Of a stretch of 64,000 bases of DNA, positions 1 through 2,006 are shown piece after piece. The stretch's first letter is position 1; every line of letters starts with the position of its first letter. The notes under the pieces were generated by a model, which was given only the letters and a program-made list of their open reading frames with translations, ran no database searches and had not been told where the DNA came from. Source of the stretch: Sphingobacteriales bacterium (GTDB taxonomy: Bacteria; Bacteroidota; Bacteroidia; Chitinophagales; JADJOU01); contig JAJTHM010000030.1 of assembly GCA_021297855.1 (NCBI GenBank), positions 1 to 64,000 on the forward strand, written 5' to 3'. The position numbers and the translations under genes are program-made.

Positions 1-61
1 CCACGTCCTTCATCGCCTCTGAGAGCCTAGGCATTCCCCGTGTGCTCTTATTTGCTTTTTC
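1..61 (-). rRNA. rrl: 23S ribosomal RNA, 5' end (partial)
   Basis: The minus strand reads ACACGGGGAATGCCTAGG and then AGAGGCGATGAAGGACGTG, the conserved beginning of bacterial 23S rRNA. Aligning by eye with the E. coli 5' end puts the mature start near base 61; the rest of the gene lies beyond base 1. No 16S rRNA or tRNA lies upstream: the next gene on the same strand is pckA, about 360 bases away. A promoter and leader signals sit directly upstream (separate entries), so this looks like a 23S gene transcribed on its own. Confidence 0.93.
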
Positions 62-67
62 TCTTTA

Positions 68-95
68 GTCATAGTGCTTTTGCGGTCACTATGAC
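68..95 (-). other. Leader hairpin next to the 23S 5' end
   Basis: Perfect 9-bp inverted repeat GTCATAGTG / CACTATGAC with a 10-base loop, ending 7 bases before the 23S start. It is placed like a pre-rRNA processing structure. A second hairpin (GACACA / TGTGTC, 135-150) lies further up the leader. The processing role is inferred. Confidence 0.6.
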
Positions 96-172
96 CTTTT
101 CTTTTATGTATAAACCTAAAATCTATACACCAAAGACACATAAATGTGTCCCTACATTTTTTCTTGCTATAT

Positions 173-188
173 CAATATGTCAATGAAC
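173..188 (-). promoter_or_regulatory. boxA-like rRNA leader element
   Basis: The minus strand reads GTTCATTGACATATTG. From memory this motif is typical of Bacteroidota rRNA leaders and 16S-23S spacers and resembles an antitermination boxA. It lies between the promoter at 268-300 and the 23S start, which supports a genuine rRNA transcription unit. Confidence 0.6.
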
Positions 189-267
189 GCGGTTGATGCC
201 CCATTTTACTGAGACTTTTTCCATTTCTTCTGTATCAATTTCTCAATACTATTTCCCGAAACGGAGT

Positions 268-300
268 GCAAAGATAATTTTATTTTTTTTATCTGTGCAA
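268..300 (-). promoter_or_regulatory. Promoter of the stand-alone 23S gene
   Basis: On the minus strand the -7 box is TATCTTTG followed by CACTCC, and a -33 TTG lies 21 bases upstream (complement of 298-300). This matches the Bacteroidota TTG-N(~20)-TAnnTTTG consensus closely. It sits downstream of the pckA terminator and about 200 bases upstream of the 23S 5' end, so it should fire a transcript starting near base 260. Confidence 0.75.
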
Positions 301-362
301 GTATTTTAATAAATAATTTCAATTCATAGCTTCTAATACTATTTCTCAGTGAGTTAGAGCTG

Positions 363-397
363 AAAAAAAAATGCCTCATTTTAAAATGAGGCATTTT
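363..397 (-). terminator. Rho-independent terminator of pckA
   Basis: A 30-base perfect palindrome (AAAATGCCTCATTTT and its complement, 368-397) is followed on the minus strand by a run of U encoded by the A-tract at 363-371. It starts about 20 bases after the pckA stop and separates pckA from the 23S promoter. Confidence 0.9.
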
Positions 398-419: not shown

Positions 420-2006
420 CTATGCCTGAGCGCTCAAATTAGGCGCTGCGGCTAAAATCTCTGCTGCGGTATTCCCCGCGAATTTTTCAAAATTCTTATT
501 AAATGCCGCAGCTAATTTATTGGCTTGAACATCATAAGCTGCCTTATCTATCCATGCTTCTCTCGGATTTAATAATTCAGATGGAACTCCCTCACAACTT
601 TTAGGTATTTCTAATCCGAACACTGGATGGGTGTAGAACTCAACCTGACTAAGACTGCCGTTGAGCGCTGCCGTAATCATAGCTCTAGTATAAGGTAATT
701 TCATTCTAGAGCCTACGCCGTAAACTCCGCCTATCATGCCGGTGTTGATCATCCATACATTGGCACCACTTGCCTGCATTTTTTTTCCTAACAATTCAGC
801 ATATCTACTAGGATGTAATGGTAAAAATGGGGCTCCAAAACAAGCTGAGAATGTCAATTGAGGTTCTGTGACTCCTGCTTCTGTTCCAGCCACTTTAGCG
901 GTAAATCCAGACATAAAATAATACATAGCTTGGGCTGAATTTAAGCGAGAAATAGGAGGCAGAACACCATAGGCATCATAAGTTAGGAAGAAAACGTTAT
1001 TTGGTATATTTCCGACGGAGGGTTCTACCGCATTCGGTATATGATAAAGGGGATAGGAGACTCGAGTATTTTCTGTGATAGAGCATGAAGCGTAATCAAC
1101 CTTGTTTGTTCCTGGGAAAAAATCTATATTTTCCAATATGGCTCCAGCCTTTATAGCTTTATAAATTTCGGGTTCTTTTTCTTCTGTTAAATCAATGCAT
1201 TTTGCGTAGCATCCTCCCTCAAAGTTGAATACGCCTGTATCTGTCCATCCATGTTCGTCATCTCCTATCAATCCGCGATTTGGATCCGCAGAAAGTGTTG
1301 TTTTACCCGTGCCTGATAATCCGAAAAATAGGGCAGTGTCTCCCTCTTTTCCGATGTTTGCAGAACAGTGCATTGGGAATACTCCTCTATCGACTGGGAG
1401 AACGAAATTTAATACCGTAAAAATTCCTTTTTTAATCTCACCAGTATAACCTGTACCGCCTATTAATGCAATTTTTCGGGTAAAATTCAATACGGCGAAG
1501 TTGGATTGCCTTGTACCATCGATGGTAGGGTCTGCTTTGAATCCAGGAGCGCAAATCACATGCCAGTCTGCAGCAAAGTTTGTGGTATCTTTCGGTCTGA
1601 TAAACATATTATAGGCAAACATATTGGACCAAGGATATTCAGTCACGACTCTGACATTCAGCTTGTATGCTGGGTCAGCGCAAGCTTCACAGTCTCTTGA
1701 ATAGATGTCTTTTCCATCCAAATAGCTCACTACCTTATCGTATAATTTGTCGAAATTATCTGCGCTAAATGGGAAATTGAAATTGGTATTATTCCAATCT
1801 ACATGGCTTTCTGTAATACTATCTCTAACGATAAATTTATCCTTAGGAGATCTTCCTGTGAACTCACCTGTCATTACAACCAATGCTCCTGTATCATTCG
1901 TGGTGCCTTGTTTCTTTTCTACCGTGTGTTTTGTCAACTCTTCTGGAGTCAGGTTCCAAAATAAATTCGCAGGATTGTTAATTCCTAAATAGCTTAATTG
2001 GCTCAT
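420..2006 (-). CDS. pckA: Phosphoenolpyruvate carboxykinase (ATP)
   Basis: Converts oxaloacetate and ATP to phosphoenolpyruvate, CO2 and ADP, the committed step of gluconeogenesis in the cytosol. At 528 residues it has the usual length of the ATP-dependent family. The kinase P-loop GLSGTGKTTLS and the following DDEHGW metal-binding stretch are intact, as are RSPKDKF near the N terminus and RVSYPLYHIPN in the C-terminal half. The ATG start is preceded by an A/T-rich leader and a -7-like box. It stands alone between the divergent ABM gene and its own strong terminator. High confidence, as the family is very conserved. Confidence 0.97.
   Translation of the reverse strand: MSQLSYLGINNPANLFWNLTPEELTKHTVEKKQGTTNDTGALVVMTGEFTGRSPKDKFIVRDSITESHVDWNNTNFNFPFSADNFDKLYDKVVSYLDGKDIYSRDCEACADPAYKLNVRVVTEYPWSNMFAYNMFIRPKDTTNFAADWHVICAPGFKADPTIDGTRQSNFAVLNFTRKIALIGGTGYTGEIKKGIFTVLNFVLPVDRGVFPMHCSANIGKEGDTALFFGLSGTGKTTLSADPNRGLIGDDEHGWTDTGVFNFEGGCYAKCIDLTEEKEPEIYKAIKAGAILENIDFFPGTNKVDYASCSITENTRVSYPLYHIPNAVEPSVGNIPNNVFFLTYDAYGVLPPISRLNSAQAMYYFMSGFTAKVAGTEAGVTEPQLTFSACFGAPFLPLHPSRYAELLGKKMQASGANVWMINTGMIGGVYGVGSRMKLPYTRAMITAALNGSLSQVEFYTHPVFGLEIPKSCEGVPSELLNPREAWIDKAAYDVQANKLAAAFNKNFEKFAGNTAAEILAAAPNLSAQA

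Follow-up and report, generated by a model that had tools for sequence, protein, structure and literature searches.

The minus strand at the edge of this contig carries the start of a 23S rRNA gene that is preceded by pckA. Is this 23S gene unlinked from 16S, as a preliminary description of the sequence proposed, or was pckA wrongly joined to an ordinary rRNA operon during assembly? We analysed the whole 64 kb stretch, hereafter called the window, together with the rest of its draft genome (G000), three other species of the genus (G001, G002 and G003) and further genomes of the order. Based on these data we consider it highly probable that an autonomous 23S(-5S) transcription unit begins at the pckA locus. 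The genome would hold two such units, unlinked from its two 16S units.

The 23S start downstream of pckA

The features of the locus are listed in Table 1. Window positions 2-58 align at 89% with nucleotides 4-60 of a complete 23S, identified by its Rfam match, from the 23S-5S locus of G073, a relative in the same order. The preliminary description spoke of a stand-alone 23S gene at 1-301. The 5' end, the leader and the promoter are real, but only about 60 nt of the 23S lie in the window, and position 1 is the end of the contig.

No tRNA, 16S or other Rfam family was found in the 64 kb window by tRNA and Rfam searches, and the 1.5 kb upstream of the 23S contain no 16S. The second 23S locus, on contig C15, also lacks a 16S in its first 8 kb. 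This bears out the earlier statement that neither 16S nor tRNA precedes the 23S; the pckA terminator that had been placed upstream of the 23S unit is present as well. In a pckA tree the lineage, a member of Bacteroidota, falls with weak support near Chitinophagaceae and Saprospiraceae; its order is probably Chitinophagales.

Table 1. Features at the start of the 23S unit, in window coordinates
Feature	Position	Strand	Basis
23S rRNA gene 5' end	1..61	-	alignment to G073 23S; cut at window position 1 by contig end
Transcribed leader of 23S unit (predicted)	62..268	-	fold z-score; alignment with leaders at the second locus and in a congener
Leader hairpin 3, loop CGCAAAAGC kept in congener	67..96	-	fold and alignment
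Leader hairpin 2	106..130	-	fold
Leader hairpin 1, three compensatory pair changes vs congener G001	132..152	-	fold and RNAalifold
boxA-like antitermination motif GTTCATTGACATATTG	173..188	-	position shared with other leaders
-7 element and initial transcribed region TATCTTTGCACTCC, common to 16S and tRNA units	263..276	-	motif counts, genes downstream
-33 element TTG, 21 nt from -7 element	298..300	-	pattern match; spacing of 19-21 nt kept in congeners
Intrinsic terminator of pckA, between pckA and 23S unit	363..397	-	sequence, AATGCCTCATTTTAAAATGAGGCATTTTTTTTT on minus strand
pckA, ATP-dependent phosphoenolpyruvate carboxykinase	420..2006	-	Pfam PF01293, E 2.8e-214; same neighbour in G001, G002, G003

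Promoter and leader of the 23S unit

The promoter is of the Bacteroidota type, TTG-N21-TATCTTTG, and starts at window position 300 as claimed before. Taken by itself the bare consensus is weak support for a promoter, with 21 matches in the window vs 12 expected. The extended motif TANNTTTGCACTCC is strong support. It matches once in the window against 0.01 expected, and the whole genome holds 22 sites against none in the reversed control; 4 of these are at rRNA units and at least 6 are ahead of tRNA genes. For about half of the 22 sites (L200-L221), no tRNA or rRNA was found downstream.

The alignment of the 16S and 23S leaders of G000 (score 52, against 39 for the best shuffle) extends from the promoter across the initial transcribed bases as far as boxA. 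In G007, a genome of family f3, the two promoter regions are identical in 45 of 49 aligned columns (score 77 against 28). This similarity in both genomes suggests, without proof, that the 23S acquired its promoter as a copy of the 16S one.

The leader folds with a z-score of -4.6, and none of 200 shuffles was as stable. It forms three strong hairpins; leader hairpins had been described earlier. Hairpin 1 differs between G000 and G001 by three double changes that preserve its pairing (RNAalifold; a small sample of two genomes). The boxA-like motif, also noted in the preliminary description, is found as GTTCATTGACAT at an equivalent position in those other 23S leaders whose assembly reaches it. 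BoxA also occurs in the leaders of 16S units and, in linked relatives, in the spacer. For the stand-alone 23S unit of G073 (family f3), pairing of its leader with its trailer gave -41.9 kcal/mol, compared with -24.8 +/- 3.7 kcal/mol for shuffled sequences; the corresponding stem is less clear in G007 and in G013.

The promoter, the boxA and the upstream terminator lead us to infer that the 23S would be transcribed separately. In brief, RNA polymerase would start near window positions 260-270. From established rRNA biology, boxA would be expected to load the Nus antitermination complex, which would protect the untranslated RNA from Rho termination while it is made. Pre-23S would be cut from a predicted leader-trailer stem by RNase III. 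Matched promoters, together with equal numbers of 16S and 23S units, could keep the rRNAs in balance without co-transcription.

rRNA units of the genus and their assembly

The genome of the window is a 3.1 Mb draft of 134 contigs, 99.97% complete, and position 1 of the window is also the first base of contig C111. Rfam searches of all contigs found neither a complete 16S nor a complete 23S, as assembly recovered just the ends of these genes, and no 5S was found in the draft contigs. Contig C15 opens with the same 330 bases as C111 (99%) and is a second 23S start. Leaders on contigs C4 and C96 run into 16S starts, and their promoters are related to those of the 23S units. A list of the 16S and 23S loci, as suggested in the preliminary description, hence comprises four entries, each on a contig of its own: two starts of 23S and two of 16S.

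We found pckA in front of the 23S leader in all four species, and a DEAD-box helicase gene adjoining the other 23S leader in three of them (G000, G001 and G002). At this second unit the helicase gene lies upstream and is divergent. The idea of a pckA-23S pairing in named Bacteroidota found no support, as none of 80 pckA loci from named records had a 23S start within reach, and the pckA neighbour therefore looks like a genus trait.

Contig C42 of G003 shows a 16S unit from end to end, with promoter, boxA, 16S (299-1806), tRNA-Ala and terminator, followed by unrelated protein genes; no 23S was found on this contig after the 16S-tRNA-Ala. Other 16S 3' ends run into tRNA-Ala (G001 C13) or tRNA-Ile (G001 C19 and G002 C4). 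On contig C19 of G001, a 5S at the left end and a 16S-tRNA-Ile unit at the right end point towards each other across 125 kb. Each 16S unit of the genus keeps one classic spacer tRNA, Ala in one and Ile in the other (G001 C13/C19, G002 C4/C28, G003 C42). As judged from the contig layouts of G000-G003, the genus has four rRNA units, all unlinked: two are 23S-5S, one is 16S-tRNA-Ala and one is 16S-tRNA-Ile, with the spacer tRNAs split between the last two. The unlinked state is shared by these close relatives, so it is no oddity of a single assembly, and the departure from a single rRNA operon is therefore genuine, though not unprecedented.

Some further rRNA and tRNA pieces were observed. At the start of G000 contig C59 (positions 1-150, L153), a piece similar to 23S nt 102-206 is fused to a 16S 3' end and followed by tRNA-Ile. 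The anti-Shine-Dalgarno sequence of this 16S end is ACTCC instead of CCTCC, and the locus may be a pseudogene or a chimera. Partial, degenerate tRNA and 5S copies adjoin intact tRNA and 5S genes at L018 (G000 C100), L157 (G002 C28), L148 and L151 (G001) and L153. They often contain small palindromes such as CCCGATAGTTATCGGGA, and look like repeat elements built from pieces of stable-RNA genes.

Counted from the contig end, C111 and C15 differ at 142, 223, 235 and 373 nt and then throughout. The first difference was at exactly 142 nt in all nine contig-end pairs compared, i.e. C111/C15 and eight others made up of 16S 5' ends, 16S 3' ends, 23S leaders and 5S ends of G000, G001 and G002. This is the signature of a graph assembler with k=141 that halts where two copies turn identical. 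C111 ends at window position 1 because the genome has two identical 23S genes. No contig of the genus covers an entire 23S gene, and the 23S 3' end is missing in the genus. The gaps between successive differences are shorter than 141 nt, and the path from pckA into the leader is therefore unique.

A complete linked operon could lie unassembled elsewhere in the genome, with the pckA unit being a partial or dead 23S copy. Just about 60 nt of this 23S were assembled, and collapsed repeats escape short-read assembly. We nevertheless find this very improbable, because the genome yielded no more and no fewer than two starts each for 23S and 16S, and both pairs stop at the k-mer edge like a two-copy repeat. 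Linked copies would show a 16S 3' end, spacer tRNAs and boxA before the 23S, whereas the 16S 3' flanks that we found lead to one tRNA and other genes. In addition, the compensatory changes preserve the pairing of leader hairpin 1.

The doubt voiced in the preliminary description, that pckA was falsely linked to the 23S of an ordinary 16S-tRNA-23S operon, fares slightly worse still. It draws on a draft, metagenome-type assembly in 134 contigs without a complete rRNA gene, and on a contig that ends inside the 23S. The leader, however, is uniquely phased and carries promoter and boxA, not spacer tRNAs; the same pckA-23S junction is present in three other species, and 16S units are seen to end without 23S. 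With this phasing, the recurrence of both loci in congeners and the separate 16S units of the genus, we regard an assembly join as excluded for practical purposes, and the claim that 23S is unlinked from 16S as upheld. That the 23S is mainly read through from pckA, its own promoter being minor, is just as hard to credit, since the two co-oriented genes, about 360 nt apart, have an intrinsic terminator between them, and the divergent helicase gene upstream of the second 23S unit excludes a shared read-through design there.

Linkage across the order and origin of the split

The separate 23S and 16S units of the genus were compared with rRNA loci of the order that could be read without masked DNA. 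Loci L127, L183, L185 and L191 were left out, and their missing 16S was not counted, because the upstream DNA reads N. Two pattern matches, L114 and L182, were chance matches outside rRNA. The classical linked order 16S-tRNA-Ile-tRNA-Ala-23S is the rule in families f8, f16, f19 and f21, and is absent from the loci seen in this genus. For this order, these linked operons support the earlier remark that the layout is unusual.

In family f3, five genomes (G114, G040, G028, G073 and G007) have a 23S that is preceded by promoter and boxA and lacks an accompanying 16S or tRNA. The near-complete G007 has one 16S and one 23S that were found deep inside different contigs (580 and 464 kb). A further f3 genome, G090 (L225), has a linked operon, and the family thus holds linked and split members (L193/L224 in G007). 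In G013 of family f9 (L109) we found promoter, tRNA-Ala, boxA, 23S and 5S with no 16S, which is a different cut of the operon. From the mixture of f3, f9 and linked families it follows that linkage underwent more than one change, or that its loss and retention were uneven.

The split units may have originated from duplicated rrn operons by complementary loss, one copy losing 16S and tRNAs and the other 23S-5S and one tRNA. A deletion origin is inferred here from leader similarity. It should be noted that the window leader matches the spacer of linked relatives little beyond the boxA itself, with scores about equal to shuffled ones. We tentatively propose that duplication followed by complementary loss split rrn operons of the order on more than one occasion, that the 16S promoter region moved in front of the 23S, perhaps by recombination between the boxA copies in leader and spacer, and that matched promoters replaced co-transcription in rRNA balance. 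The promoter-tRNA-Ala-boxA-23S arrangement of f9 and the 16S-tRNA-Ile/16S-tRNA-Ala pair of the genus might then be frozen intermediates.

Unlinked rRNA genes, with a spacer of more than 1.5 kb, are a recognised trait, frequent in Deinococcus-Thermus and Planctomycetes (PMC11261877) and also found in symbionts (Ahn et al. 2020, PMC7761764). They were surveyed by Brewer et al. (2020, ISME J 14:597), as reported in PMC7825169 and PMC11261877. As far as these accounts go, the surveyed cases resemble ours in a distance of more than 1.5 kb between 16S and 23S, genus-wide occurrence and low copy number. The emphasis there, to the same extent, is on Deinococcus-Thermus, Planctomycetes and reduced symbionts, whereas the present case is from Bacteroidota and has two units of each kind. 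The genomes studied here are 1.9-3.1 Mb (at least 93% complete). In Cardinium, an endosymbiont of the same phylum, 16S is likewise separate from 23S-5S (PMC6387759, PMC6147030). The small symbiont genome of Cardinium carries one set; our genus has two, and each of its 16S units retains one of the two spacer tRNAs.

Thermus thermophilus has two 16S and two 23S-5S units, unlinked and each with its own promoter. The unit counts and the presence of own promoters seem to be the same here; phylum, promoter type and tRNA content differ. Helicobacter pylori reportedly also has 16S and 23S-5S units, by the account of Iost and co-workers from 2019. The likeness lies in separate precursors that mature on their own, as those of our lineage presumably would. 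In the part of the literature that we searched, no paper on the trait in this order was found, and an earlier mention may exist. The split rRNA genes described here are a further case of an already known trait, one that includes Cardinium in the same phylum.

This lineage will escape surveys in which 16S-ITS-23S is amplified as a single fragment. Described chiefly in symbionts and a small number of other phyla, the trait now extends to a lineage of Bacteroidota whose genomes are of ordinary size. The order, and even one family (f3), contains both linked and split forms, which provides a natural test of whether co-transcription of 16S and 23S is important and of how rRNA operons break up.
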